DNA of 64,000 bases, from the NCBI RefSeq assembly GCF_003054555.1, contig NZ_CP026304.1, positions 4,774,001-4,838,000 of the forward strand, written 5' to 3'. Below, piece by piece: positions 33,707 to 62,038 of this stretch. This DNA is from Streptomyces lunaelactis. Lineage in GTDB: Bacteria > Actinomycetota > Actinomycetes > Streptomycetales > Streptomycetaceae. Position 1 is the first letter of the stretch, and every line of letters begins with the position of its first letter. The notes beneath the pieces are model-generated. The model saw nothing but the letters and a program-made list of their open reading frames with translations, did not search any database and was not told where the DNA came from. The translations under genes and the position numbers were made by a program.

Positions 33707-34195
33707 TCACTGGAGGACCTTCGCGAGGAAGCCCGCCAGATTCTTCCTGATCCGCCCGATCCGGTCGTCCAGGTCGAGCGTCTCGTCCATCTGCCCCATA
33801 GGCGCCGCGATCTTCCGCCGCGCGTAGAGGGAGCAGGCCAGGTTCCGGCACATGTAGAGCCCCACGGAGTTGCCGAGCCGCCCTTCTTTGCCGCCCTTGA
33901 GTGAGGAAAAGAGCGCTGTGCCACCGACCGGATGGGTGGTGAAGCAGAGCCCGCAGATCGACTTCCGGCGGAAGTCCGTGGTGCGGCGGGTGGCCCGCAG
34001 CTCCACGCCCACCAGCTGGTCCGCCCGCTGGACCACGAGATAGGCGCGGCTGAGGTCCCGGCCGTCCGCCCACGAGAAGAAGTCGAGGTCGTCCCACTCC
34101 ACCTCGTCGAGGACCGGGATGGTGAGCGCCTTGGAACGGCTCCTCGACATGTTGACGAGCGAGCGGCGTATCTCGTCCTGCGTCACGGGGTTCAA
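33707..34195 (-). CDS. EF-G-binding FBP-domain protein (FusB-like treble-clef zinc protein)
   Basis: A 162-residue FBP-family protein. The zinc knuckle is formed by SICGLCFTTHP near residue 79-89 and YMCRNLACSLYARRK near 114-128; the N-terminal half is helical. FBP/FusB proteins bind elongation factor G, and FusB rescues it from fusidic acid. The TTG start (34195) overlaps the NRPS stop by 4 bases (TTGA) and has GGAGAG upstream, so it is translationally coupled to the NRPS gene and is the last gene of that operon. A protective role is inferred from position only; similar proteins also occur outside biosynthetic clusters. Confidence 0.8.
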   Translation of the reverse strand: MNPVTQDEIRRSLVNMSRSRSKALTIPVLDEVEWDDLDFFSWADGRDLSRAYLVVQRADQLVGVELRATRRTTDFRRKSICGLCFTTHPVGGTALFSSLKGGKEGRLGNSVGLYMCRNLACSLYARRKIAAPMGQMDETLDLDDRIGRIRKNLAGFLAKVLQ

Positions 34196-37100
34196 TGATC
34201 TCTCCTTACGGGTCGCCCTACGGGCCTTGCGGGCCGGGCTGTGCGGCCGCGGCGGACGACTCGGGGGCCGTCGTCGGCGGGGCCGGTCCCGGGGACGGAA
34301 CCGCTCGCGTCGATCACCCGGGCCAGTCCGGCGACCGTCGGCTCCTGGAAGAACCGCCGGATGGGCAGGGACACCCCGAAACAGGAACGGATCTTGCTCA
34401 CGGCCTGGATCACCAGCAGCGAATGGCCGCCCAGTGCGAAGAAGCTCTCCTCCGTGCCGACCCGCTCACACCCGAGCAGTGACACCCAGATCCCGGCCAC
34501 CGCCCGCTCGGTCTCCGTCACCGGAGCCGTGTATGCGCGCCCCTCGGTACGGATGTCCAGGTTCAGCAGCGCCTTCTGGTCCAGCTTCCCGTTCGGCGTC
34601 ATCGGCAGCGCGTGCAGCACGCAGTAGGCGGACGGCACCATGTACTCGGGCAGCGCCGCCGCCGCGCGTTCCCGCAGCAGCGCCTCGGTCGGCGCCTCGG
34701 CTCCCGGCACGGGCACCACGTACGCGACCAAATGTCGGCCGGCCAGCAGGACGCGGACCTGCTCGACCGCCGGATGGGCGGCGAGTACGGCCTCGATCTC
34801 ACCCAGCTCGATCCGGAATCCCCGGATCTTCACCTGGTCGTCGCTGCGGCCGAGGAACTCCAGCACTCCCTCACGCCGCCAGCGCGCCAGGTCCCCGGTG
34901 CGGTACATCCGGGTCCCTGGTGCCCCGAACGGGCAGGCCACAAAGCGTTTGGAGGTCAGCCCCGGACGCCCCAGATAGCCCCGGGCCAGCCCGTCGCCCG
35001 CCAGGTACAGCTCACCCGCGACCCCTTCGGGAGCCGGGCTCAGGTCCGCGTCGAGGACGTACACCTGGATGTTGTCCATCGGGCGGCCGATCGGCGGATT
35101 CCGGTCGTAGCTGCCGACGCAGTCCATGAGGGTGACGGCGATCGTGCTCTCGGTGGGCCCGTAGCTGTTGATGAACCGGCGTCGCTCGCTGACCCATTCG
35201 CCGACCAGGCTGCCGGGGAACGCCTCGCCGCCGACCGAGACGATCCGCAGGGCGGGCAGCCGCTCCGGGACCAGCAGGGGCAGTAGGGCGGGCGGCAGGT
35301 CGCCCACCGTGACGCCCGACTCCCGCATGAACGCCATGAGCAGCTCGGGATCGCGGCGCTGGTCGGCGTTGGCGACCGCCAAGGTGGCACCGGCCAGCAG
35401 GGCGCAGAACATCTCCAGCACCGAGACGTCGAACGTGGGCGTCGCGAACTGCAGCAGGGTGTCGGCCGAGGTGATCTCGTAGTGGGCGTTGGTGGCCCGG
35501 ACGAAGTTGACCGCCGAACGGTGCTCGATCACCACGCCCTTGGGGTGGCCCGTCGAACCCGAGGTGTAGATGACGTACGCCGGATGGGAGGGGGACAGCG
35601 GCCGCACCCGGTCCGCGTCGGCCGGATTCCCGGCCCACGCATGACCGCCCGACGGCTCGTCCCCGTTCAGCAGCTCCGCGATCGCCTCGGCGGTGAAGAC
35701 CGCCGCCGGGGCCGCGTCCTCCAGCGTGGCAGCGATCCGCGATGCCGGATGGGCCGGGTCCACCGGCAGGTACGCCGCGCCCGCCTTGAGTACGCCAAGC
35801 ACCGCCGTCACCATCTCCGCCGACCTCGGCAGCACCAGCGCCACCAGGTCCTCGGGCCCCGTGCCCCCGGCGATCAGCCGGCGTGCCACCCGGTTCGCCC
35901 GGGCGTTCAGCTCCGCGTAGCTCAGGACCTGGCCGTCCAGGCGGACCGCTGGGGCGTCCGGGGTCCGGGCCGCGCGTTCCTCGAACAGCTCGGTCAGCGT
36001 CGTCGGCTCGCCGGGACGCGCGGTGTCGTTCCACTGGACCAGGAGGCGGTCCCGCTCGGCCCGGCCCAGCAGCCCGACGGCCGCCGTCCGCTGGTCGAGA
36101 TCGTCGGCGAAGGCACCCAGCATCCGGACCAGCCGCTCGCCGAACCCCTCGGCGGACTCCCGGTCGAAGAGGTCCAGGCAGTACTCCACGTAGCACTCCA
36201 TGCCGCCGGGCGTGCCGTCCTCGGCACGGCTCTCGGTCAGGTCGAAGTGCAGGTCGAAGAGGGCGGCGTCGAGGTCGATCGGCATCGCCTCGGCGGCCAC
36301 GGAGGGCAGCTCCAGCAGGTCCTCGGTGCTGTTGTGGAGGGCCAGCATCACCTGGAACAGCGGGTGCCGGGCCATGGAACGGACCGGGTTGAGCACCTCG
36401 ACCAGCCGCTCGAACGGGACGTCCTGGTTCTCGTAGGCAGCGAGGTCGGTGTCGCGGACACGCTGCAGCAGCTCGCGCGGCGTCGGGTCGCCCGAGGTGT
36501 CCGTGCGGAGCGCCAGCGTGTTGACGAAGAAGCCGACGAGATCGTCGAGCGCCTCGTCGGTGCGGCCCGCAATCGGCGTGCCGATCACGATGTCCGTACC
36601 GCCGCCGAGTCGGGTGAGGACGGCGGCCAGGGCGGCCTGCACCACCATGAACAGGCTGCTGTCCGTCTGCTCCGCGACCTCCATCAGCCGCCGGTGCAGC
36701 GCCGCCGGGACCTGGAAGGGCGCCATGCCGCCCCGGTGGGACGGGACGGCCGGGCGGGGCCGGTCGGCGGGCAGCGCTGTCTCCTCGGGTGCCCCGTCGA
36801 GCGCCTCGCGCCAGTAGGCGAGCTGGCGGGAGACCGCGCTGTGCGGGTCGTCCTCGCGGCCGATGAGATCACGCTGCCAGAGGGTGTAGTCGGCGTACTG
36901 CACAGGGAGTTCCGGCCCGGTGTACGCGGACCCGCCCAGGCGCTCGGTGTACGCGGCCGACAGGTCGTGCCAGAGCGGCCCCATCGACCAGCCGTCGCCC
37001 GCGATGTGGTGGACGACCAGGACGAAGACATACGTGCTGGGCCCGGTGACGAACAGGTGGGCGCGCACCGGCGGGTCGACGGTGACGTCGAAGCCCTCAG

Positions 37101-40100
37101 CGGCCACCCGGGCCGCCGCCGAGGCGACCTCCTCCTCCCTGGTCTCGGCCACGCGCAGCGCCGGGCGGGCCCGCTCAGCGCTGAGCACCAGCTGGTGTGG
37201 CCCGTGCTCGGAGTCGGGATAGACCGTCCGCAAGCTCTCGTGCCGGGCGACGAGGTCACCGAGGGCGGCTTCGAGGGCCGGGATGTCCAGCGCGCCTGAC
37301 AGCCGGAACGCCGACGGCATGTTGTACGCCGCGCGCTGGCCCTCGAACTGGTTCAGGAACCACAGCCGCCGCTGGGCGGACGACAGCGGTACGACGGCGG
37401 GCCGCTCGGCGCGCAGCAGCGCCTGCCGCGCCGCGCCGGCCCCGGATCCGGGACCGGCGAGCGCCTCCGCGAGCGCCGCCACGGTGGGGGTCTCGAAGAC
37501 CGTACGGATCGGCAGTTCCGCGCCCAGCTCCGAGCGGATGCGGCTGATCAGCCGGGTGGCCAGCAGGGAGTGGCCGCCGAAGGCAAAGAAGTTGTCGTCG
37601 ACGCTGTCCCAGGGGCGGCCCAGAACCTCACCGAACAGGGCACACAGCTCCCGTTCCAGCGCGGTGCGCGGCGCCCGGCCGCTCAGCTCCGCGTCGAGCG
37701 GCGGGGCGGGCAGGGACCGGCGGTCCAGCTTCCCGTTCGGCGACAGGGGGAAGACGTCCATGGCCACGAAGGCCGTCGGCACCATCGACGTGAGCAGGAA
37801 CTCCTCGCCGAACCGGCGCAGTTCGTCCGGATCCCAGCCGATCGCAGGGTCCGGCACGACGTAGGCGACGAGGTACTTGCCGCCGGGCCGGTCGTCCCGG
37901 GCCACCACGGCGACCTGGGTGACCGACGGGTGCTTGGCCAGCACCGCCTCGATCTCCCCGGGCTCGATCCGGATGCCCCGGATCTTGACCTGGTGGTCGG
38001 CCCGGCCCAGGAACTCCAGTTCGCCGTCGGGCCGCCTGCGGGCGAGGTCGCCGGACCGGTAGATCCGGCTGCCCGGCGGGCCGTAGGGGGCCGCGACGAA
38101 CCGTTCGGCCGTGAGCCCCGGGCGGTCCGCGTACCCCCGGGCGACGCCCTCGCCCCCGATGTACAGCTCACCGGCGACGCCCAGCGGCACCGGGCGCAGC
38201 CGGTCGTCCAGGACGTAGACGCGGGTGTTGGCGACCGGGCGGCCGATGGGGGCCGCGTCGGGCCAGGCGGAGCTGTCGCCCGGGAGGGAGTGGACGGTCG
38301 CCCCGTGGGCCTCGGCGGGCCCGTACAGGTTGTGCAGGCGTCGGGCGGGGTCCGCGTGGCGGCCGCGCGTCCGGTCGCCCAGGGTGAGTGCCTCTCCGGC
38401 CTGCTGGACGTCGGTGAGGCAGGACAGGCTGAGCCCCAGTTCCTCCGCCGCCTCGTACACCGCGTCGATGACGGGGGCGGGGGCGTAGAGCTCGTTCACG
38501 TCGTAGCGGTCCAGCCAGCGGGCGAGCTGCTCGGCGCTGCGCCGGGTGTCCTCGGTGGGGACGACCAGGGTCTTGCCCGAGATGAGGCTCGCCAGGATCT
38601 CCTGGACCGAGACGTCGAAGCCGACCGCCGTGAACTGCGCCGTGCGGGCGCCGGTCATGCCCGTCATGGTGTCGCGCTGCCACAGGACCAGGTTGCGCGG
38701 CCCGGCGGCGGGCATCAGCACGCCCTTGGGGCGGCCGGTCGAGCCCGAGGTGTAGATGACGTAGGCCGTGTTGAGGTCGGTGAGCGCGCTGGTGCGGTCG
38801 GAGTCGGTGGGGTTGGTGTCGGGGCGCGTGGCAGCCTCGGCGATGAGGTCGGCGTCGTCCAGGAGCACGGTGCCGGTGCCGTCGGGCACCAGGCCCACCG
38901 TGCGGGAGTGCGCGAGGACCAGGGTGGGGGTGGCGTCCGTCAGGAGGTACGTGATGCGGTCGCGCGGGTAGTCCGGGTCGACGGGGAGGTAGGCCGCGCC
39001 GCTCTTGAACACCGCGAGCAGGCCGACGATCATGTCGAGCGACCGGGGTACCAGCAGGGCGACCGCCCGTTCCGGTCCCGCTCCGCGGGCGATCAGCGCG
39101 TGGGCGAGCCGGTTGGCGCGGGCGTTGAGCTCGGCGTAGGTGAGCGTCTGGCCCTCGAACATGACGGCTGTCGCGCCGGGCGACCTGGCGACCTGGGCCT
39201 CGACCAACTCGGGCAGGGAGAGCGGTGAGACGGGCGCGTCGGTGGCATTCCAGACGGCGAGTTCCTGCTGCCGCTCCGCTCCGGAGAGCAGTTCGGCGTC
39301 GTCCACCCGGGTGTCCGGTGCCGTCAGGACGGCCCGCAGCACGGCCAGGTAGTGGGCGGCCATCCGCTCAACGCGCGCCGCGTCGTAGAGGTCCTTGCTG
39401 TACACGAAGCGGCAGGTGGTGCCCTCCTCCTTGGCCTCGAAGTGCAGCTCGAGGTCGAAGCGGGTGACCTGCTCCTCGATCTCCAGGACGGTCGTGGTGA
39501 GGCCGCCGACGGCGGGCCCCTCGCGGAGGTCGAGGAAGTTGCAGAGCACCTGGAAGACGGGGTTCAGCCCGAGGTCCCGGTCGGGGGCGAGCTCCTCCAC
39601 GACGCGGGCGAACGGCGCCTCCTGGTTGGCCTGCGCCGCGAGCAGCGTCTCCCGCGTGGTCCGCAGCACGTCGGTGAGGGTCGCGGTGCCGGGCACGTCG
39701 GAGCGGAGCGCGACGGTGTTCACGAAGAACCCGACGATGCCCTCGAACTCCCGGCGGGTCCGGTTGGCGACCGGTGCGCCGACGATGATGTCCTCCTCCC
39801 GCGTGTAGCGGTGCAGCAGGACGTTGAACGCGGTGAGCAGCACCGTGAGGGGGGAGACCCCGCCCCGCCGGCACAGCTCCCGCAGCCGCCGCTCCAGGTC
39901 GCCGGGCAGGGCGGCCAGGGTGGTGCCGCCCTCGAAGGTGGGCCGGGCCGGGCGGGGCGGTCGGCGGGCAGCCGGAGGGTGGGCAGCTCTCCCGCCAGGT
40001 CCACGATCCAGTGGTCCACCTGGCGGCGTAGTTCGCCGTCGGCCAGCGAGTCGCGCTCCCAGTGGGCGTAGTCCGCGTACTGGAGCGGGAGTTCGGGCAG

Positions 40101-40730
40101 TACGGCGCGGGTGCCGGACGCGTGCCCCGCGTAGAGCTGCCAGAGTTCGCGCGCGAAGACGCCCTCCGACCAGCCGTCGGTGACGGTGTGGTGGAAGTTG
40201 ATGAAGAGGTAGTGCCGGGCGGGGTCCGTGCGGTAGACGGCGGCCCGGAGCAGCGGGCCGTCGGTGAGCGAGAAGGGGATCTGGGCCTCGGCCGCGATCT
40301 GGCGCAGGACCTCCCGCTCGCCCTCTTCGGCCGTCAGCCCGGGGACCTCGACGCGGGGCACGTCGAGCGTGAGCCGGTCGGCGATGCGCAGGACCAGGTC
40401 GTCATCGGCGCCGGCGAGGGTGGAGCGCAGGATCTCGTGCCGGTCGACGAGGTCCTGGAGCGCGGCGCACAGCGCGTCGATCCGCAGGTCGCCGTCTATG
40501 CGGAGGGCGAACGGCACGCTGTACGTGGCGTTGCTGCCGTGCAGCTGGTCGAGGAACCAGAGCCGCTGTTGGGCGCTGGAGGCCGGGAGCCGGCCCTCGC
40601 GGGGCGTCCGGCAGACGGTGGAGGGCGCGAGGACCTCCTTCTTGTTGTCCAGCAGCATGCTGAGCAGTTCGGCCTGGAGGTCCCGGGTGTCCGGGTCCAG
40701 GGTGTCCGGGGCGAGTTCGTTGGGGCTCAT
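34192..40730 (-). CDS. Nonribosomal peptide synthetase, C-A-T-C-A-T, with a frameshift in the first C domain
   Basis: Two modules across about 6.5 kb. The first C domain (LPASSAQQRLWFLDQL, FHHTVTDGWSEG) starts at ATG 40730. Near 39937-39957 the frame breaks in a G/C run: the upstream frame gives ADRPARPG and the next gives TFEGGTT, so either the gene is interrupted or a base was miscalled. Downstream follow A1 (YVIYTSGSTGRPKG), T1 (FFAFGGHSL), C2 (HHIAGDGWS), A2 (YVIYTSGSTGHPKG) and T2 (FFALGGHSL). There is no thioesterase. My reading of the specificity positions is D-V-Q-Y-Q-A-L-G-A for A1 and D-V-L-D-S-G-S-I-A for A2, neither of which I can assign. It starts 1 base after the aldolase stop. 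Confidence 0.85.
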
Positions 40731-40731
40731 G

Positions 40732-41784
40732 TCAGTTGCCCCGCCCTTCGGTGAGCACCTGGCGCACGATCGACAGCGCCGTGTCGATGTCCGCCGTGCT
40801 GACTCCGTTGTGGGTCACGGCGCGCAGCCTGCCGTGGCCGAGTTCGGCCAGTGAGAGACCGAGGTGCCCGGCGGCCTCGACGAACATCTGCCAGGTGAAG
40901 CGGGGGTCAGTGACCTTGAACATGACGATGTTGGTCTGCACGGCGGCGGGGTCGGTGTCGATCCCGTCGATCTCCGCGAGGCCCTCGGCCAGCCGCAGCG
41001 CGTTGGCGTGGTCGTCCTGGAGCCGTCCCAGGTCGTTGAGGGCCACCAGGCCGGCAGCCGCGATGATGCCCGCCTGGCGCATACCGCCGCCGAGCATCTT
41101 GCGGGCCCGGCGGACCTCGGTGATGAAGTCCTCGCTTCCGGCGACCATCGAGCCGATGGGTGCGCCGAGCCCCTTGGAGAGGCAGAACTGCACGGAGTCC
41201 GCGTACTGCGCGATCTCGCTGGCCGGGATCGCGAGGGCTACGGCGGCGTTGAACAGGCGCGCGCCGTCCAGGTGCACGGCGACGTCGCGCTCGTGGGCGA
41301 ACTCCCACACCTCCTTCATGTAGCTCTGCGGGAGCACCACGCCGCCGCAGCGGTTCTGGGTGTTCTCCAGACAGATGAGGGAGGGCAACGCGAACTGCTC
41401 GTCCTCGGGTTCGTCGGGGAACCCGGCGCGCAGGTCGGAGAGGAGGAGCCGGCCGTCGGGCTGGTTGGGGATCCGCTCGTACATCACGCCGCCGCAGACC
41501 GTGGCACCAGCGGCCTCGTAGATGTAGATGTCGCTCTCGGCGCCGGCCAGCATCTTCGAGCCGCGCGGGGCGTGCACCAGGATGGAGGCGAGGTTGGCCA
41601 TGGTGCCGCTCGGCATCAGGCAGGCCGCCTGCTTGCCCAGCAGGTCGGCGGAACGTTCCTCCAGCTGGCGGACGGTCGGGTCCTCCCCGTACACGTCGTC
41701 ACCCAGCGGGGCCTCGTTCATCGCCCGTATCATCGCCGGAGTGGGCAGGGTGAAGGTGTCACTGCGCAGTTCGATCATGGTCAC
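40732..41784 (-). CDS. Low-specificity L-threonine aldolase-like PLP enzyme
   Basis: A 350-residue fold-type I PLP enzyme with IELRSDTFTLPTPAM at the start, HLDGARLFNAAVA in the middle and the cofactor lysine in FCLSKGLGAPIGS near residue 203. Threonine aldolases interconvert threonine/allo-threonine with glycine and acetaldehyde, or make other beta-hydroxy amino acids. Within this NRPS operon it may set threonine stereochemistry or supply a hydroxylated building block; which one is unclear. Start GTG 41784 or ATG 41778. It sits 13 bases after the PLP/ATP-grasp gene. Confidence 0.85.
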   Translation of the reverse strand: MTMIELRSDTFTLPTPAMIRAMNEAPLGDDVYGEDPTVRQLEERSADLLGKQAACLMPSGTMANLASILVHAPRGSKMLAGAESDIYIYEAAGATVCGGVMYERIPNQPDGRLLLSDLRAGFPDEPEDEQFALPSLICLENTQNRCGGVVLPQSYMKEVWEFAHERDVAVHLDGARLFNAAVALAIPASEIAQYADSVQFCLSKGLGAPIGSMVAGSEDFITEVRRARKMLGGGMRQAGIIAAAGLVALNDLGRLQDDHANALRLAEGLAEIDGIDTDPAAVQTNIVMFKVTDPRFTWQMFVEAAGHLGLSLAELGHGRLRAVTHNGVSTADIDTALSIVRQVLTEGRGN

Positions 41785-41797
41785 TGGTCTCTCTTCA

Positions 41798-44074
41798 CTA
41801 CTTCGCGAACGTGTCGGTGCACAGCTGGACGCTGATCCCGCGTAGGGCCGAGTCGAGGGCGTCCATCACGTCGGCGGCGTCGTCACCGCGCGCGATGACA
41901 TGGCCCAGCCGGTCGTAGGCGTTGCGCGGCGGGCGGACGTCGATGCCCTCGGACGCCGTCACGGTCACCCGCTCGATCCCCTCGGCGGACAGCACCTCGG
42001 CGGTGCCGTCGACGGAGGCCAGCGTGCCGGGGTGCTCGGCAAGCAGGAACTGGATGCCCGCGTGGCCCGACCGCTCGGCGGAGAGATCCACCGGCAGCGC
42101 GGCGGCGGCCCGGACCTGCTGTTCCAGCAGGTCGGATCCGGTGGCCAGCCTGATCAGTTCGGGGATCATGCCACCGGCCAGCCGCGGGTTGATCTCGATG
42201 ATCTCCGGGCCCCGGGCGGTGAGCTTGACCTCGGTGTGCGTCGGGCCGAAGCGCATCCCGGTCGCCTTCAGCGCCAGGGTGACGGTATCGGTCAGCGCGG
42301 CCCGCTCGGCTTCCGGCAGCGGGGCCGGGAAGACGTGCCGGGTCTCCACGAAGTACGGCGTCCCGGTGAGGTACTTGGCGGTGACGCCGACGCACGTGAC
42401 CTCGTCGCCGTCGCTGAACATCTCGACGCTGTACTCGAGCGCATCGAGGTACTCCTCGATCAGCACGGTGCGGGCCGTGGGCAGCCCCCGTACGTTGCTC
42501 TCGACGGCCAGCACCCGGGCGGCGTGCTCCGTCGCCTCGGCGGCCGTGGCGCACAGCAGCACGTCGTTGGAGCCGGAGTCGTCGGCGGGCTTGACCACGC
42601 ACGGCAGGCCCACGGCGGCGACGCCCGCCGCGACCTGCGCGACGTCCGTCACGACGGCGAAGCGGGGCTGCGGGACGCCTGCGTCCTTCAGCGTCCGGCG
42701 CAGCGACGCCTTGTTGCGACAACGGTTCGCCGCGTCCTCGGAGTTGCCGGGCAGGCCCAGCCAGTCGGCGAGTCCGGCGACCGTGGGGACGTAGAAGTCG
42801 CTGGTCGTGGTGATGCCGGCGATCTCCTCCCGGCGGAAGCGCTCCTGGATGGCCTTACGGAGGACAGGCATCTGGTTGGTGTCACAGACCAGCACCTCGC
42901 AGCCCGTCTCCACGGCACCGACGTACCGCTCCGGCTTGCTGGTGAGCAGCACGGCGGTGAGGCCGAGCGCGGCCGCCGCCCTCAGCGCCTGCACCCCGGT
43001 GCCGCTGGTGTTGGCCTCGACGAAGAGCAGGTGGCGCTGGCGGGCGGGCCGCTCGTCCAGACCGGCGCGGGACCAGGAGCGGACGGCGGTGCCGTAGCCG
43101 ACCGGGGCCGGGGCGTCTGAGAACGGGAGCTCCTCCAGCCGGTGCGCGGCCCAGTAGGCGTCGCTGTAGACGGTCTCGGTGTACCGGTCGCCACGGTCCG
43201 GGAAGATGCCGACGATCCGACTGCCCGGCGTGGCCGTCAGGGCCAGCTCGCGCAGCAGGCGGTAGACGGAGCCGGACGTGTTGCCCGCGAAGATCTGCTG
43301 CTCACGGGCGAGGTCACGGGTGGCGGCGAACGCCTCGCGGTCGTTGAGCCAGTGGATCTCGTCGATCGCGGTCCGGTCGAGGTTGTTCGGGTGCAGGCTG
43401 TTGCCGAGACCGCTCTGGAGGCGGCCGGGCACGTCCGGCTGGTCAAAGAGGGTGCTGCCGACGGAGTCCACGCCGACGACCCGCAGTCCGGGCAGGGTAC
43501 GGCGCAGGGCGCGACCGGTCCCGCACAGCGAGCCGCCGCTGCCGACCGCGCCGACCAGCGTGTCGACCGGGCCGAGGTCGCGCAGGATCTCGTCGGCGAG
43601 GACCCGGTACGCGCCGGGGTTGTCCGGGTTGCTGTACTGCTGCGGCCAGAAGGAGCCGGGGAGTTCGCGCATGAGCTCCGCCAGCCGGGCCAGCCGGGCG
43701 CCCTGCCAGCCGCCGTCGGTCATGGCGGGCACCACGTGCACCTCGCACCCCAGGGCGCGCAGCTTCGCCAGGGTGGTCGGGTCGGTCCGTGGGTCCGTGA
43801 CGATGTGCACCGGGTGGCTGAGCGAACGTCCGACCAGGGCCACGCCCAGAGCCATGGTGCCTGACGAGCTCTCCACGATCGGCGCGCCCGGCCGCAGCAC
43901 GCCCAGGCGGCGGGCCTCGGCCACGATGTTCTTGGCGACGCGGTCCTTCATGCCGAACGCGTTGGCGAGTTCCAGCTTGGCGTACACCCGCGTCCCTTCG
44001 GAGGCGGAGACGGCGAGCCGGACCAGCGGTGTGTTGCCGATCGCTTCGTTCATTGACTCAAAGATCATGTTCAC
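41798..44074 (-). CDS. Fusion of a cysteine-synthase-like PLP enzyme with an ATP-grasp ligase
   Basis: A 758-residue two-domain enzyme. The first 320 residues are a beta-replacement PLP enzyme: NAFGMKDRVAKN with the Schiff-base lysine, ESSSGTMALGVAL, and the phosphate loop GSGGSLCGTGRAL. Residues about 345-758 are an ATP-grasp domain: LPCVVKPADDSGSNDVLL, VLIEEYLDALEYSVEMF and IIEINPRLAGGMIPEL. The PLP part fits replacement of phosphate in O-phosphothreonine by an amino donor, as proposed for DabA-C type enzymes of friulimicin. The role of the ATP-grasp half is unknown. The GTG start overlaps the kinase stop by 4 bases. Confidence 0.85.
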   Translation of the reverse strand: MNMIFESMNEAIGNTPLVRLAVSASEGTRVYAKLELANAFGMKDRVAKNIVAEARRLGVLRPGAPIVESSSGTMALGVALVGRSLSHPVHIVTDPRTDPTTLAKLRALGCEVHVVPAMTDGGWQGARLARLAELMRELPGSFWPQQYSNPDNPGAYRVLADEILRDLGPVDTLVGAVGSGGSLCGTGRALRRTLPGLRVVGVDSVGSTLFDQPDVPGRLQSGLGNSLHPNNLDRTAIDEIHWLNDREAFAATRDLAREQQIFAGNTSGSVYRLLRELALTATPGSRIVGIFPDRGDRYTETVYSDAYWAAHRLEELPFSDAPAPVGYGTAVRSWSRAGLDERPARQRHLLFVEANTSGTGVQALRAAAALGLTAVLLTSKPERYVGAVETGCEVLVCDTNQMPVLRKAIQERFRREEIAGITTTSDFYVPTVAGLADWLGLPGNSEDAANRCRNKASLRRTLKDAGVPQPRFAVVTDVAQVAAGVAAVGLPCVVKPADDSGSNDVLLCATAAEATEHAARVLAVESNVRGLPTARTVLIEEYLDALEYSVEMFSDGDEVTCVGVTAKYLTGTPYFVETRHVFPAPLPEAERAALTDTVTLALKATGMRFGPTHTEVKLTARGPEIIEINPRLAGGMIPELIRLATGSDLLEQQVRAAAALPVDLSAERSGHAGIQFLLAEHPGTLASVDGTAEVLSAEGIERVTVTASEGIDVRPPRNAYDRLGHVIARGDDAADVMDALDSALRGISVQLCTDTFAK

Positions 44075-45063
44075 GCCCCCCAGGCATGTTCGGTGCTCGC
44101 GGTGCGAGCCGGTGCGGTGTTATCCCGCGCCGTCACTTCCATGGAGCAGGCGCTCCACACGTCGCCATGGCCCAGCGACCGGTGCACGGTGGTGGTGCCG
44201 GGCAGTGCGGAGCACGCGGCCCGGGCCGCCCCGACCTTCCTCGTCAGCTCCGGGTCGTCGGCGGCGTAGAGGATGCCGAGCACCGTGCCGCTGTGGGCAC
44301 AGGCCACCCCCAGTCCGCCGGTCTCCTCGCAGATCCGGCGCAGCTCGGGCAGGCTCCGGCGGGACCGGGCCGCCGCGTTGAGCTCGGAGCTGCGGGTGGC
44401 GACGCGGCCCACGGCGGTCAGGTCACGGGCCCGGACGGCGCCGCACAGCTCGTCCAGCAGCCGGGCGTACTCCGCCTTGTCGGCCTCGCTGACCTGCCGC
44501 GCGTCCCGGTTGTGCGCGATCGTGTCGACCTGACCGCCCTCGTCGTACGCGACGATGGCCAGCGACGGCAGGATCCCCAGCCCCTCACGGAGTTCGGCCT
44601 CGCGGTGGTAGTACGCGACGATCTCGTCGTACATGACCCCGTCGGTCGGTTCGATCTCCCGCAGGAACGACTCGATCGCCGCCGCGTCGAACGTCGTGCC
44701 CAGCGCCGCGCCCACCGCGCGCACGGTGGCCACCAGGTCCGCGGAGGAACTGGCCATCCCTTTGCCCTCGGGCAGTTCGCTGCTCAGCTCCAGTGAGCCG
44801 CCGCCGCTCCGCCCGGCGGCGGCCAGCGCCAGCTCGGCGATGCGCACCGCCTTGCCCTTGTGCGGCGGCCAGACCACGAATCCGTCGCGGTCCGGAGAGT
44901 GGCGGAAGACCGCCGTGCTCCATGCGGCGACCGGGAAGGTCACCATGAAGTGCCGGTCGCCGCCGGGCAGTACGCCTTGCAGGAGTTCGCCGAAGGTGCC
45001 GAACGCCGTGCCGGTGCCGCGCACGATCGTCTCAGTCGCCTTAGGGCGCGCTTGCGTGTCCAT
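44071..45063 (-). CDS. GHMP kinase, L-threonine kinase (PduX)-like
   Basis: A 330-residue GHMP-superfamily kinase. The ATP-binding motif PEGKGMASSSADLVATVRAV near residue 98-117 closely resembles PduX, the threonine kinase of cobalamin salvage, and AFGTFGELLQGVLPG near residue 20 is the PduX-type opening. No cobalamin or propanediol genes are near. Instead it is coupled to a PLP beta-replacement gene and a lyase gene inside an NRPS operon, so it most likely makes O-phospho-L-threonine as the activated precursor of 2,3-diaminobutyrate. It overlaps the lyase gene by 23 bases. Confidence 0.83.
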   Translation of the reverse strand: MDTQARPKATETIVRGTGTAFGTFGELLQGVLPGGDRHFMVTFPVAAWSTAVFRHSPDRDGFVVWPPHKGKAVRIAELALAAAGRSGGGSLELSSELPEGKGMASSSADLVATVRAVGAALGTTFDAAAIESFLREIEPTDGVMYDEIVAYYHREAELREGLGILPSLAIVAYDEGGQVDTIAHNRDARQVSEADKAEYARLLDELCGAVRARDLTAVGRVATRSSELNAAARSRRSLPELRRICEETGGLGVACAHSGTVLGILYAADDPELTRKVGAARAACSALPGTTTVHRSLGHGDVWSACSMEVTARDNTAPARTASTEHAWGA

Positions 45064-46525
45064 TTCCGTCCTCCCCCGTTGCCCGGGCGGTCGCCGCCCG
45101 CGCCGCCCACTCCCGTACGAGCCGCTCGTGCTCGTCCCGCTGCGCGCGCAGTGCCGCGCCCACCGCGTCCGGGTGCGCCGACCCGCTGGACTTCATCCGG
45201 CGCAGCGCCCGCCCCACGTCGAAGGCGTCGCCCAGCGTCCTGGCCGGGTCGCGCAGCACGTGACCCTCCGCCTCGGCCGCCGCGCGCAGCAGCTCCGGGT
45301 CGCCGTCGGCAGGCTTGCGGCCTGCCGCCACCGCCGCGACGATGTACCGCCCCGCGATCACCTGGGCGCGTCGCCAGGGGACCTCCTCGGCCAGCGTCAG
45401 GGAGTTGGCGAGGGCGAAGCCGCCCAGGAACTCCCGCTCGCAGACCTCGGCCATCCGGTCTGCCCGGAAAGTGAGGTGCCGCAGGACCTCGGTGAACAGC
45501 CGCAGCGTGCTGCGCAGCGCCTCGAACGCCTCGTAGACGTGCGCTCCGGCCTCCTTGGAGACCTCGACGGTGTTGGAGTACGGCGTGTTGCGCTGACCCA
45601 GCGTCACATCGATGTGGAACGACGACAGATGGGCGCTGCGACCGCGGATGCGCTCCAGGATCGGGAAGTTCTTCTTCTGCGGCATGGCCGACGAGATGCC
45701 CGACAGCTCGTCCGGCAGGTCGATGAAGCCGTACTCGCTGCTCCCCCAGGCCAGCAGGTCCGTCGCGAACCGGCTCAGCGCCACCCCGAAGACCCCGAAC
45801 TCGGCGGTGATCTCCAGGGCCCAGCCGCGCGAGGCGACCGACATCAGCGCGTTCGGCTGTGCCCGCCGGAAGCCCAGCAGGGATGCCATCCTGTCCCGGT
45901 CCCAGGGCAGTTCCTGGCCGGACATGGCGCCCGCACCCAGCGGGCAGGCATCAAAGCCGTCGTACGTGGCGAGCAGTCGGCGCAGCGTGTGCTGGACGTG
46001 CTCGGAGAGCGCCGCCAGGTAGAAGCCCGGGGTGATGATCTGGGCGGCCTGGTGGTGGGTGTAGCCGGGCATGGGCAGATCGGTGGTGGCCTCCGCCAGC
46101 TGCCGGGCCGCCTCCTGGAACTCCAGCAGTGACTCCGCCGCGCCGATGAGCCGGCCACGGCCGAACATCAGCTGGGCGCAGGCCTGGAGGTCATTGCGGC
46201 TCCGGTCGAGGTGCCAGGTCGGGACCGGCGCGGACAGCCCGGCCTCCACGTGCCGCTCCAGCGCGAACGCGATGTCGGACATGTTCGCCTGCTGCTGCCC
46301 GGTGATGACCTCCCGGGTCGCACCGGCGAGCAGGCCGTCCAGCTCCCGCGTCTGTTCCGGGCTGATGAGCCGCATACGCGCGTACTCGGCGACGAGCGTG
46401 CGCTCGATCTTCACGTAGTAGGGGAGCAGGTGCTCGGCCTCGTAGGCGAACTGCGGATCGAGCAGCTCGGTCCGGAGGAGGAAGCTGGGGCCGCTAGAAA
46501 TGCGGCCGCTGAGTGTGTGCTTCAC
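45041..46525 (-). CDS. Argininosuccinate-lyase-like enzyme
   Basis: A 494-residue member of the fumarase/aspartase superfamily. HLDRSRNDLQA, MPGYTHHQAAQ and the mobile-loop signature ISSAMPQKKNFP with its catalytic serine are intact. A second argB-argH context is absent, so arginine synthesis is unlikely. With the kinase and PLP enzyme beside it, the expected reaction is removal of fumarate from an aspartate adduct to leave 2,3-diaminobutyrate. The GTG start follows the MFS stop by 11 bases. Confidence 0.83.
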   Translation of the reverse strand: MKHTLSGRISSGPSFLLRTELLDPQFAYEAEHLLPYYVKIERTLVAEYARMRLISPEQTRELDGLLAGATREVITGQQQANMSDIAFALERHVEAGLSAPVPTWHLDRSRNDLQACAQLMFGRGRLIGAAESLLEFQEAARQLAEATTDLPMPGYTHHQAAQIITPGFYLAALSEHVQHTLRRLLATYDGFDACPLGAGAMSGQELPWDRDRMASLLGFRRAQPNALMSVASRGWALEITAEFGVFGVALSRFATDLLAWGSSEYGFIDLPDELSGISSAMPQKKNFPILERIRGRSAHLSSFHIDVTLGQRNTPYSNTVEVSKEAGAHVYEAFEALRSTLRLFTEVLRHLTFRADRMAEVCEREFLGGFALANSLTLAEEVPWRRAQVIAGRYIVAAVAAGRKPADGDPELLRAAAEAEGHVLRDPARTLGDAFDVGRALRRMKSSGSAHPDAVGAALRAQRDEHERLVREWAARAATARATGEDGNGHASAP

Positions 46526-46536
46526 GCTTTCCCGCC

Positions 46537-47810
46537 TCAGACCGCTACAGGGTCGGCATCGGGGATCTCCCGCACCGATCGGACGCCGGACAGCAGGATC
46601 ACGACGCCGGAGAGCAGGACACCGACGGCGCCGAGCGCCAGTGTCTGCTGGGCACCCAACCAGCCGCCGAGAAAGCCGCCGGCGAGGGCGCCGACCGGGG
46701 TGACGCCCATCACGACCATCCGGATCGTCGCGTTCATCCGGCCCTGGAGGTCGTCGGGAGTGACGGCCGACCGCAGGCTGCGCTGGTTGACGTTGTAGAT
46801 GATGACCATGGCCGAGTCGATGAAGTGCATGGCCACGATGAGCAACGACGCCTCGGTCTTCGGCAGCTGCGTGGCCACCGGGATCAGCAGGGCCGACAGC
46901 CCCGCGATCACCAGGGAGAAGACCATCGCGCGCCCGACTCCCAGGAGTCGGGTCGCTCGCTCGGCGACCAGCGCCCCGACCAGCGCGCCCGCCCCGGCGG
47001 AGGCGAAGATCAGCCCGATGAAGAACGGTTCCAGGCCCAGCGTCCGGGTGATGAAGATCAGGAAGACCGGCTCGATCACCAGGGTGAAGAGGTTGAAGAC
47101 CAGCGTGGCGGTGACCAGCGTGCGGACCACCTTGTTACGCAGCACGGGCTGCGCGCCCTCGGCGATCTCCCGCCAGACGCCGGGCTGTACGGCGGCCTCG
47201 ACCGCGCCGGCCGGGGCGGGCTTCGCCTCGCGGTGCCCGATGAGGCCGGTGAAGACGGCCGACACCAGGTACGTGAACGAGTTGATGATCACCGCGAGAG
47301 GCGCGGAGATGATCTGGAGCAAGCCGCCACCGATCGCGTTGCCCGCGATGTCCGAGGCGGAACTGCTCAGCTCCAGCTTGCTGTTGCCTTCGACCAGGTC
47401 CTTGCGGTCGATGAGCAGCGGCAGATAGGAGGCGCTGCCGATGTCGGAGACCACCGTGCAGACGCCGACGGCCAGCGACACCGCGAGCAGCAGCGGGAAG
47501 GAGAGGAAGTCGCCCGCCCAGCCGATCGGCAGGAGCAGCAGCAGCCCCGCGCGCACCAGGTCGGTGAGGATGAGGATGGGGCGCTTGGCGCTCCGGTCCA
47601 GCCACACCCCGGCGAACAGGCTGATGAAGAGGTAGGGCAGTCCCTCCGCCGCGATCAGGACGCCCATCTCGAACGGCGTCGCCGCCAGCGAGACGGCTGC
47701 GATCAGCGGAAGCGCCACGGCCGTGACTTTGGACCCGAACAGCGACGCGGTCAGTCCGAACCACAGGTTGCGGAAGTCGGCGTGCCGCCACAGGGTCGTT
47801 CTCTTGTCGG

Positions 47811-47814
<4 letters not shown>
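46537..47814 (-). CDS. MFS exporter of the peptide cluster
   Basis: A 425-residue major-facilitator protein with 12 predicted membrane helices, opening with the DFRNLWFGLTASLFGSKVTA motif of the MFS_3/enterobactin-exporter-like group and a loop DRSAKRPILILTDLVRA between helices 2 and 3. It should export the peptide product across the cytoplasmic membrane, with resistance as a side effect. The GTG start overlaps the NRPS stop by 4 bases, which couples export to synthesis. Confidence 0.85.
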
Positions 47815-55154
<7,340 letters not shown>

Positions 55155-55219
55155 GAAGTCCCCATCCCTTGGTACCGGGCGGCTCGTACAGCCGCTTGTC
55201 CGCCGTCGTCCGGCGCTGG

Positions 55220-58783
<3,564 letters not shown>

Positions 58784-59122
58784 AGATCAACTGCCTCAAG
58801 AGGCATCGCTTTACCCTGGCATCCAGGGGCGGCCGAAACGAGCAAGCTGGTGCCTCATATAACTGCATGACAGCAAGCTGAGCGCTTGGCATACAACACC
58901 AAAGGGAGCGAAACGGACGCACGGGAGAGAGCGTTGACGTGCAGGTACTCGCGGATCCCGTGGTCCGCGAAGAGCGGCCCGCGGCCGTGACGCCCGCCGA
59001 TTCCCCCGGCTCCTGCGCGCGAAATACTTCGAAAAGCGCCGAGGGCACCCGGTGTATCACCTCGTCACGGCCGACCGTGCGAATGAAGTAGGTCCGGGCA
59101 TCCGGCTCAGGCCTACGGGGAC
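58784..59122. other. Upstream region of the starter NRPS gene
   Basis: No gene can be supported. One minus-strand frame (about 58860-59100) reads TYFIRTVGRDEVIHRVPSAL, which looks protein-like, but it has no clear start or family and is probably a remnant. The NRPS promoter should lie here. Confidence 0.4.
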
Positions 59123-59435
59123 AGGGCTGTTGCAAAGTCGTGTGATCTTGTAATGGTCCTGGTCGGCGGTACTTGTCGCGCCGTCCGTGCCGTAAACAAC
59201 GAAGCCCCGTTGGAGCGAGTGACTTTGCCAAGTCGCTGCACTCAACGGAGCTTCGAGGGGAGGAGGTCACCGCCTGCCATGCGGAAGGCGATACCGGGCA
59301 CGGGCGGCGTGAACTGCGCGCCGTAAAGGCCCTGACGGTCACTGAACTCGGTGTGGACTTCCCCGGCGCGGTCCAAGCCGCGCGGCTTGCCCCGACCAGC
59401 GAAGTCACAAGATCAGTCGACTTTGCAACAGCCCT
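59123..59435. mobile_element. 313-bp remnant of an ISAs1-like insertion sequence with both terminal repeats
   Basis: The ends are inverted copies: 17 bases at 59123-59139 match the reverse complement of 59419-59435 exactly, and similarity extends to about 28 bases with a few mismatches. Inside, the plus strand still encodes HGRRELRAVKALTVTELGVD followed by FPGAVQAARL, a piece from the transposase of the ISAs1 family. The rest of the transposase is deleted, so the element could only move with help from an intact relative. Confidence 0.7.
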
Positions 59436-59497
59436 CCCCACGGGGAAGCCCGGGTACGGCAGCGTGACCCCGACTACCGTGCCGAGACCGGCACCCC

Positions 59498-59545
59498 GGA
59501 CGGCCAACACCCGGGCCAAGTCATTGGCCCGGGTGTTGGCCGTCC
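59498..59545 (-). terminator. 22-bp perfect hairpin between mbtH and the starter NRPS gene
   Basis: A 22-bp perfect stem (59498-59519 with 59524-59545) with a 4-base loop, about 100 bases downstream of the mbtH stop. Strong hairpins without T-runs act as terminators in Streptomyces. Confidence 0.75.
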
Positions 59546-59642
59546 GTACACAACTGCCCCGCTGCCTACCGACGATCAGTGCCACCGCGTCCGGGGACTC
59601 GCGTACTTTGGTCCTCGATCGGGCGGTGCGGGGCCGTACCGC

Positions 59643-59861
59643 CTATCGCGCGGAGGTCGCCATCTCGTCGACGAGGCTCTTGGGCCGCATGTCGGTCCAG
59701 TTCTCCTCGATGTACGCCAGGCACTCTTCGCGGCGGGCCTCCCCGAAGGCCGCTGCCCAGCCCTCGGGCACCGCGACGAACGAGGGCCACAGCGAGTGCT
59801 GGTTCTCGCCGTTGACCAGCACGAGGTAGGTGCCGTCCGCGTCCTCGAAGGGATTGCTCAT
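59643..59861 (-). CDS. MbtH-like NRPS helper protein
   Basis: A 72-residue protein with the full family signature: [20 protein letters not shown] followed by [19 protein letters not shown] and [12 protein letters not shown]. MbtH-like proteins bind adenylation domains and are needed for their folding or activity. It is encoded upstream of the NRPS operon on the same strand, but an IS remnant and a strong hairpin lie between them, so it may be transcribed separately. GAGGA precedes the ATG. Confidence 0.93.
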
Positions 59862-60976: not shown

Positions 60977-62038
60977 ATGATGAGCACTGGACGTAGAGAC
61001 GTGAATCAGCAGCAAACGGGCATACCTGGCGATGTGCATCCCTCAGGTGTCATGCACGCCGTCTACCGACACACGCTGCGCCAGTCCCCCGTCACTGTGG
61101 AGGGCATCGCCTCCAGCCTGGGCCTGGCCCTCGCTGTGGCCCAGCGGTCCTGCACGGAACTGGCCGAGCTCGGCCTGCTGCGCGAGGACGCAGAGGCGCC
61201 TTCCGGTTTCGTCGCCGTCGACCCTGAGACTGCCGCCGAGCGCGTCATCAGCCCGATGGAACGCTCCATCCGCGCGCAACGCTCCACCGTCGAGACCCTG
61301 CGCGGGCAGCTTCTGGAGTTCAGCCGCGTCTACGAGGAGCAGCCCGCCAGAAGCGACGCGCGCGGCTCCGTCGAGTTCCTGGCGACGCTCAGCAGCACCC
61401 GGGCGGCCATCGCCGAACTCGCCTCGAAGTGCGAGAGCGAGGTACTGACCTCCCAGCCCGGTGGCGGCCGTAAGGCCGACGTCCTGGAGGAGGCCATCGC
61501 CCGCGACGAGGCGATGCTGGAGCGCGGGGTCAGCATGCGCACCCTCTACCAGCACACCGCCCGTTTCAGTCAGGGCACCCGCGAGTACGTGGAACGGGTC
61601 TCCCAGCGCGGCGCCGAGGTGCGGACGCTCGACGACCAATTCGTACGTCTGCTGATGTTCGACCAGAAAGTGGCCGTCATCGGGGTCGAGGGCGACCCGG
61701 GCGCTGCGATCATCGTGCGCGAGCCCAACCTGATCCACTTCATCAGGAGCACCTTCGAGCTGTGGTGGGTCAGCGCGACCCCGTTCCCCCTGGAGTGGAA
61801 CAACCAGGAGGTCGCGGACATCTCCGAGCAGCTGAAGCAGCGGATCACCCTGCTGCTCAGCGAAGGACTGACCGACCAGTCGATCGCCACCCGCATGGGC
61901 ATGTCCGTCCGCACCTGCCGCCGCCACATCGCAGAGGTCATGGACCGCCTCGGCGTGAAGAGCCGTTTCCAGGCGGGCTACCTCCTCGGTACCCAGCGCA
62001 CCGAGCCGCCGGCCCGGCCCCCGACAGCTCAGCCCTAG
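60977..62038 (+). CDS. Regulator with TrmB-like N-terminus and LuxR-type C-terminal helix-turn-helix
   Basis: A 353-residue DNA-binding protein. Residues about 25-75 (MHAVYRHTLRQSPVTVEGIA) look like a TrmB/MarR winged helix, the middle (85-230) is helical, and the end (LTDQSIATRMGMSVRTCRRH followed by IAEVMDRLGVKSRFQAGYLL) is a GerE/LuxR recognition domain. Streptomycetes carry many such regulators next to small secreted peptides. It may control the divergent DTGWG gene or the nearby NRPS cluster. Start ATG 60977; a GTG at 61001 is also possible. Confidence 0.78.
   Translation: MMSTGRRDVNQQQTGIPGDVHPSGVMHAVYRHTLRQSPVTVEGIASSLGLALAVAQRSCTELAELGLLREDAEAPSGFVAVDPETAAERVISPMERSIRAQRSTVETLRGQLLEFSRVYEEQPARSDARGSVEFLATLSSTRAAIAELASKCESEVLTSQPGGGRKADVLEEAIARDEAMLERGVSMRTLYQHTARFSQGTREYVERVSQRGAEVRTLDDQFVRLLMFDQKVAVIGVEGDPGAAIIVREPNLIHFIRSTFELWWVSATPFPLEWNNQEVADISEQLKQRITLLLSEGLTDQSIATRMGMSVRTCRRHIAEVMDRLGVKSRFQAGYLLGTQRTEPPARPPTAQP

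Follow-up and report, generated by a model that had tools for sequence, protein, structure and literature searches.

The window analysed here, a 64,000-nucleotide stretch of the 8.57 Mb genome of Streptomyces lunaelactis (bases 4,774,001-4,838,000 of contig 1, in which a subset of the open reading frames (ORFs) was scanned), carries a real operon, conserved among relatives, in which nonribosomal peptide synthetase (NRPS) genes surround a cassette predicted to supply 2,3-diaminobutyrate, and which terminates in a gene for a stand-alone protein resembling the C-terminal domain of FusB and FusC (FBP_C). The chances are judged to be even that this operon serves to make a diaminobutyrate-containing, probably five-residue, nonribosomal peptide with elongation factor G (EF-G) or EF-G-driven translocation as its likely target. 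The more specific proposal, that the FusB C-terminal-type protein guards the EF-G of the producer against a diaminobutyrate pentapeptide that would stall the factor on the ribosome, is advanced tentatively, as a possibility a little short of even. The cassette itself is of a known kind; the surprise lies in how regularly a FusB-type gene accompanies the cluster.

Along the minus strand, taken in order of falling coordinates, the genes are MbtH, NRPS-A, NRPS-B, a major facilitator superfamily (MFS) protein, an argininosuccinate lyase (ASL)-superfamily lyase, a GHMP kinase, a pyridoxal phosphate (PLP) enzyme, an aldolase, NRPS-C and FBP_C, with overlaps of a few bases between several adjacent genes. 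The three NRPS genes, MbtH and exporter named in the preliminary description of this DNA, together with the overlap of several genes, were confirmed. The same order, as far as the contigs reach, was recorded in six Streptomyces records (Streptomyces sp. Isolate_45, L001; S. toxytricini, L002; S. fimicarius, L003, on a short contig; S. durocortorensis, L004; sp. cf386, L005; and S. griseoluteus, L074), with identities of 56-92% per protein, and also in genome G671. Two further species (L026 and L028) shared the cassette and an NRPS-A of 52-53% identity, the aldolase not being seen in either.

The in-cluster FusB-type gene

The FBP_C protein scored 161.6 bits against PF16571 (cut-off 27.2 bits), and residues C81, C84, C116 and C121 were invariant across 14 sequences. 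A sequence search of solved structures returned no match, and Foldseek alone ranked unrelated SH2-type chains first; the match to the treble-clef fold of the FusB/FusC C-terminal domain surfaced only with a second-look structural aligner. The resemblance is partial, in that FusB and FusC possess an N-terminal four-helix bundle whereas the 162 residues of the window protein align only to FusB/FusC 84-222, and the cysteine spacing (x2, x31, x4) differs from that of FusB (x2, x23, x5). The setting differs likewise: FusB and FusC are fusidic-acid resistance proteins, whereas the present gene sits in a peptide-producing cluster. It had been overlooked in the preliminary description, the stated range of which begins with the 489 bases that constitute this separate gene.

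The in-cluster gene was present in all eight clusters of the window type (8/8), seven of which were located via the PLP enzyme and the eighth, that of G671, via FBP_C itself, which makes it no independent case. The genome of S. lunaelactis holds two FBP_C copies, one of them inside the cluster; five other genomes (G001, G002, G003, G004 and G005) similarly paired an in-cluster copy with a second located elsewhere, and in the fragmented genome of S. fimicarius (G008) only the in-cluster copy was present. Two arrangements were evident. In type I (the window, G001, G002, G005 and G671), FBP_C follows NRPS-C. In type II (G003, G004 and G008) it occupies the interval from MbtH to NRPS-A and is encoded on the opposite strand. 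The latter placement, found in S. fimicarius, S. durocortorensis and cf386, ruled out FBP_C as a mere chromosomal neighbour of the cluster.

When 46 FBP_C proteins, G671 not among them, were placed in a tree, the type I proteins and six database relatives formed a separate clade on a long stem (support 100/100), and those of type II were nested among chromosomal copies, with the cf386 protein on a long branch away from the other two. It is apparent from this split that the gene has been acquired or exchanged by the cluster more than once.

Two genome samples were surveyed, 392 genomes of the genus and 394 of the family. At least two FBP_C copies were present in about 44 of the 392 (a tally made by eye), which makes possession of a second copy no rarity in itself. 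Five FBP_C neighbourhoods (18-20 kb), each around one or the other copy of a different two-copy genome, contained no NRPS adenylation (A) domain. Within the family sample, proteins at least 75% identical to that of the window were confined to three genomes, in all of which the gene adjoined NRPS-C.

These data have to be weighed against a competing explanation, considered rather doubtful, in which the operon does make a diaminobutyrate peptide but FBP_C tunes translation during its production, the target of the peptide lying elsewhere, for example in the cell envelope. The family occurs as at least one copy in 357 of the 392 Streptomyces genomes and so probably has a housekeeping role, and the known diaminobutyrate lipopeptides are envelope-acting. 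However, a role of that kind sits poorly with an extra copy inside every cluster of this type, brought in or exchanged repeatedly, and with the state of genomes that carry other cassettes of the diaminobutyrate type: 13 of 14 were single-copy, the gene lying on another contig or more than 1 Mb from the cassette in the four with known positions, and in the fourteenth (G261) the nearer copy was 188 kb off the cassette.

Viomycin and capreomycin are cationic pentapeptides constructed on a 2,3-diamino acid which block translocation; the likeness to the predicted product is one of size and possible target only, and no capreomycidine genes were recognised in the window. If the proposed protection of EF-G is correct, a probable target would have been assigned to an uncharacterised family of peptides before isolation of the compound, and FusB-type target protection would act as self-resistance within an antibiotic cluster, recruited to it more than once. 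It would also suggest circumstances in nature from which FusB-type protection might have emerged, its origin being described as still to be analysed in a 2012 paper (PMC3352095). No FusB-type gene in the cluster of a producer was described in the literature searched, as far as the accessible text of the sources extends (including PMC12493156, PMC9282665, PMC9290621, PMC13372681, PMC12008383 and PMC3352095). One of these, PMC9290621, mines translation genes as markers of the producers of protein-synthesis inhibitors, and the available main text makes no mention of FBP.

The precursor cassette

By the proposed route, the GHMP kinase would convert threonine to phosphothreonine, the PLP domain would eliminate the phosphate and add aspartate, and the lyase would then release fumarate to yield 2,3-diaminobutyrate, with the aldolase probably replenishing threonine or allo-threonine. 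The steps of kinase, PLP enzyme and lyase had already been proposed in the preliminary description, and for the diaminobutyrate reading the enzyme families, the maintained gene order and the occurrence elsewhere of A domains joined to a peptidyl carrier protein and a thioesterase (A-PCP-TE) beside the cassette are all supportive; a fused ligase and FBP_C had nevertheless been missed, and the cassette proved to be common rather than unusual.

The cassette enzymes are not housekeeping copies, as judged from their scores and identities, by which plain ArgH or CysK were ruled out. The lyase scored below the curated ArgH cut-off (TIGR00838, 228.7 against 279.5 bits) and was 31% identical to the sole other match in the genome; the kinase had no second match in its own genome at E ≤0.001; and the fusion protein scored 1386 bits against its family model, the next locus in the genome reaching 304 bits with the PLP part alone. 

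The second-best solved-structure match of the lyase was to 6g3d-6g3i, labelled argininosuccinate lyase, which we take to be ethylenediamine-disuccinate lyase; if this is so, the superfamily is known to free fumarate from an N-alkylated vicinal diamine, as would be needed here. The kinase, termed a PduX-like threonine kinase in the preliminary description, is a GHMP kinase, and its NCBIfam matches were weak GHMP kinase models with no PduX-named model among them. The PLP half of the next protein is SbnA/CysK-like, in keeping with its earlier description as cysteine-synthase-like, but the enzyme does not stand alone, an ATP-grasp ligase being fused to it. SbnA belongs to the diaminopropionate pathway of staphyloferrin B, in which SbnB is found where the window has a lyase; the window enzyme differs in falling below the SbnA cut-off (TIGR03945, 246.4 against 349.95 bits) as well as in its fusion. 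The ligase half scored 77.1 bits against PF18603 (LAL_C2; cut-off 29.4 bits) and matched the fold of 3vot, among dipeptide ligases, and positions K495, E540, E615, E627 and N629 were invariant in the alignment; it looks intact. The score of the aldolase against the low-specificity threonine aldolase model (309.2 bits) was just below the cut-off of 312 bits.

A search with the fusion protein recovered 596 proteins at E ≤1e-20 among 7995 scored candidates (those sharing most words), and a relative at E ≤1e-150 was present in 17 of the 392 genus-sample genomes. A cassette scan of named genomes gave 136 loci, of which the best 80 were retained. The lyase, kinase and PLP/ligase genes followed one another directly, in this order, at 61 of these 80 loci, and the cassette is widespread in actinobacteria; the other 19 include some contig ends, some cases with a gene elsewhere and the six kinase-less loci named below. 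A PLP-fused ATP-grasp ligase is highlighted in the diaminobutyrate-type cassettes of many actinobacteria. In 21 of the 80 loci the aldolase gene directly followed the cassette, six of these being window-type clusters.

It is improbable that the cassette makes a different precursor (2,3-diaminopropionate derived from phosphoserine, for example) or that the ligase half builds the diamino acid into a dipeptide ahead of the NRPS: SbnA does use phosphoserine, no kinase was found by tblastn even at E 0.01 in the related loci L012, L015, L025, L027, L073 and L077, and the invariant ligase residues and dipeptide-ligase fold would suit the second variant, yet a dedicated kinase stands between lyase and PLP gene in the 61 contiguous loci, whereas phosphoserine is a normal metabolite, and a threonine aldolase follows in the 21 loci noted above.

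Several side observations concern the cassette. Kinase-less forms (lyase plus PLP/ligase) include that of Paenibacillus (L077) and may use another activated amino acid. The S. lunaelactis genome has at a second locus (L098, C1:966001-985999) an SbnA-like gene (975187-976176, 42% identical) and an ATP-grasp gene (977126-978205, 36%), about 1 kb apart and unfused. In the two Salinispora loci (L078 and L079) the match to the fusion protein begins only at residue 219. Multiple cassettes per species were recorded in S. cirratus (L007 and L009), S. acidiscabies (L012, L040 and L044) and Kutzneria sp. 744 (L064 and L076).

The assembly line and its predicted product

The whole assembly line contains five A domains, five condensation (C) motifs, six PCPs and one TE, a complement which suggests that the peptide is probably of five residues. 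Neither a surplus condensation-type domain nor a dual epimerase-condensation motif was found when sought in the five modules; with five condensation motifs serving five modules there is none to spare, and the earlier statement that no epimerase domain is present was accordingly borne out. The A-domain codes of NRPS-B, with pocket letters taken off the alignment, were DFWNVGMVH followed by DVWHISLVD, which presumably signify threonine and then serine, in agreement with the modules named previously.

A tree constructed from 170 of 205 A-domain hits (fragments shorter than 380 residues and most loci from L081 on being omitted) placed the NRPS-A domain in a fork of 53 rows, made up of 40 with DIW, nine with DDLQ or DDVQ and four with DSDD codes. 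Although this fork, with a local-test support of 81 and a long-branch warning, is suggestive only, its association of NRPS-A with the DIW and DDLQ/DDVQ domains makes NRPS-A the likely diaminobutyrate module. Codes starting with DIW or DDLQ/DDVQ occurred in 43 of the 80 cassette loci, any A-domain match being present in 64. Orthologues of NRPS-A were 68-84% identical in five relatives. Its N-terminus (the first 110 codons) is a PCP without an A domain of its own in the same protein.

It is envisaged that NRPS-A would activate diaminobutyrate, NRPS-B would contribute threonine and serine and effect release via the TE, NRPS-C would add two residues, the MFS protein would export the peptide, and FBP_C would protect EF-G or the ribosome. 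A lipopeptide is unlikely, since no fatty-acyl-AMP ligase or free acyl carrier protein was present among the operon ORFs scanned, and the earlier prediction of a product lacking an acyl starter and unlike the lipopeptides holds to that extent.

The integrity of NRPS-C requires separate consideration. The third NRPS gene is present as described previously, but not as one reading frame; at about 39,935 a frame break interrupts its first condensation domain. Inactivity of the cluster in this strain of S. lunaelactis, the break being real and the cluster decaying, is possible but on balance doubtful. NRPS-C is a single ORF of 2170-2199 residues in four relatives, and a tblastn comparison with the NRPS-C of L001 demonstrated that the two frames join near the break without loss of homology, both of which speak for decay; however, the remaining genes of the operon are open, and where an assembly is GC-rich a lone break may reflect faulty sequencing. 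On a 14-kb contig, a near-identical NRPS-C protein begins at the same point with different first residues, and does not settle the matter.

Comparison with known diaminobutyrate systems

Diaminobutyrate occupies position 2 of friulimicin, and the roles ascribed to the friulimicin-type dab enzymes form the background to the route proposed above. Friulimicin, laspartomycin and malacidin likewise obtain a 2,3-diamino acid through enzymes of the cysteine-synthase-like and ASL-like kinds, a likeness drawn by family and not by sequence, and the friulimicin-type combination of PLP enzyme, ASL-like lyase and kinase was found together in the window. In those systems a trans-acting A-PCP-TE protein accompanies the cassette, whereas none was present among the operon ORFs scanned here, diaminobutyrate apparently being activated by the A domain within NRPS-A; the aldolase and FBP_C are additional to the friulimicin type. 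Elsewhere, the A-domain ORF beside the cassette was an A-PCP-TE protein in four of six loci scanned (L054, L058, L060 and L068), with the cassette coming immediately after it, and was an A domain alone in L048 and A-PCP in L067. According to the accessible text of PMC9113097, the A-PCP-TE proteins PstA and LpmA are common to friulimicin and laspartomycin, and malacidin employs the same mechanism, at position 2. The gene names of the friulimicin-type supply are given in the part available of PMC11117518; no literature on friulimicin dab enzymology or on the present cluster was found in the papers searched, as far as their accessible text goes.

The uridyl peptides mureidomycin and pacidamycin, which contain N-methyl-diaminobutyrate, also obtain diaminobutyrate from cluster genes, and differ in that no uridine genes were recognised in the window. 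Deletion of one proposed gene abolished mureidomycin-type products, as recorded in the available text of PMC4572928. The peptide and cluster family were not matched to a known product, and the novelty of the product is unproved.

Cirratiomycin and antrimycin both contain diaminobutyrate, and Kitasatospora xanthocidica, the species of L067, is presumably identical with S. xanthocidicus. The former compound comes from S. cirratus and the latter from S. xanthocidicus, as far as the text available of PMC4282715 reports. Neither could be matched to the product, and the loci of S. cirratus (L007 and L009) and L067 differ from the window cluster. In L067 and L009 the NRPS genes next to the cassette have A domains of the DIW type, and a tie to antrimycin or cirratiomycin is a guess. 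Locus L009 is also one of eleven Streptomyces loci (L006, L008, L009, L010, L013, L014, L017, L022, L023, L029 and L066) forming a recurring cluster in which the codes Thr, Ser, DAYFMGAT, DIWE and mostly DVENVG are disposed around the cassette and MbtH.

Features and surroundings

Table 1. Position, strand and basis of assignment of the operon genes and the divergent regulator, in window coordinates.
Feature	Position	Strand	Basis and remarks
FBP_C (FusB/FusC C-terminal-domain-like)	33707..34195	-	4-bp overlap with NRPS-C stop; proposed self-protection
NRPS-C, rest	34192..39936	-	C(second half)-A(DVQYQAL-G)-PCP-C-A(DVLDSGSIA)-PCP; Pfam and codes
NRPS-C, front half of first C domain	39936..40730	-	Pfam C positions 2-217 of 456; tblastn with L001 NRPS-C; frame break at low end
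GntG/threonine-aldolase-family PLP aldolase	40732..41784	-	NF041359, 442.2 bits (cut-off 230)
SbnA/CysK-like PLP enzyme (residues ~1-320) fused to ATP-grasp L-amino-acid ligase (~350-755)	41798..44074	-	Pfam, NCBIfam, model confidence (pLDDT) 86.6, fold matches
GHMP kinase	44071..45063	-	PF00288, 39.6 bits (cut-off 22.3); glycine/serine-rich loop PEGKGMASSSA; proposed threonine kinase
ASL-superfamily lyase	45041..46525	-	PF00206; TIGR00838, 228.7 bits; SRND, THHQ and SSAMPQKKN motifs; proposed fumarate-releasing step
MFS exporter	46537..47814	-	PF07690, PF05977; 76-89% in relatives
NRPS-B	47811..~55220	-	C-A(Thr)-PCP-C-A(Ser)-PCP-TE; start uncertain, ORF open to 55646; Pfam and codes
NRPS-A	55220..58783	-	PCP-C-A-PCP; A code DDLQVSTID; Pfam, codes, A-domain tree; candidate diaminobutyrate module
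MbtH-like protein	59643..59861	-	PF03621, 96.4 bits
LuxR-type regulator	60977..62038	+	Divergent from operon; Pfam GerE

To the left of the operon, the ORFs scanned had other functions (for example a GNAT acetyltransferase, a PGA_cap protein and a phosphoribosyltransferase), with a thymidylate kinase, a DNA polymerase III subunit and tRNA-Thr farther left. Homologues of the LuxR-type regulator were located beside MbtH at 79-80% identity in L100 and L101, and at 61% in L102.

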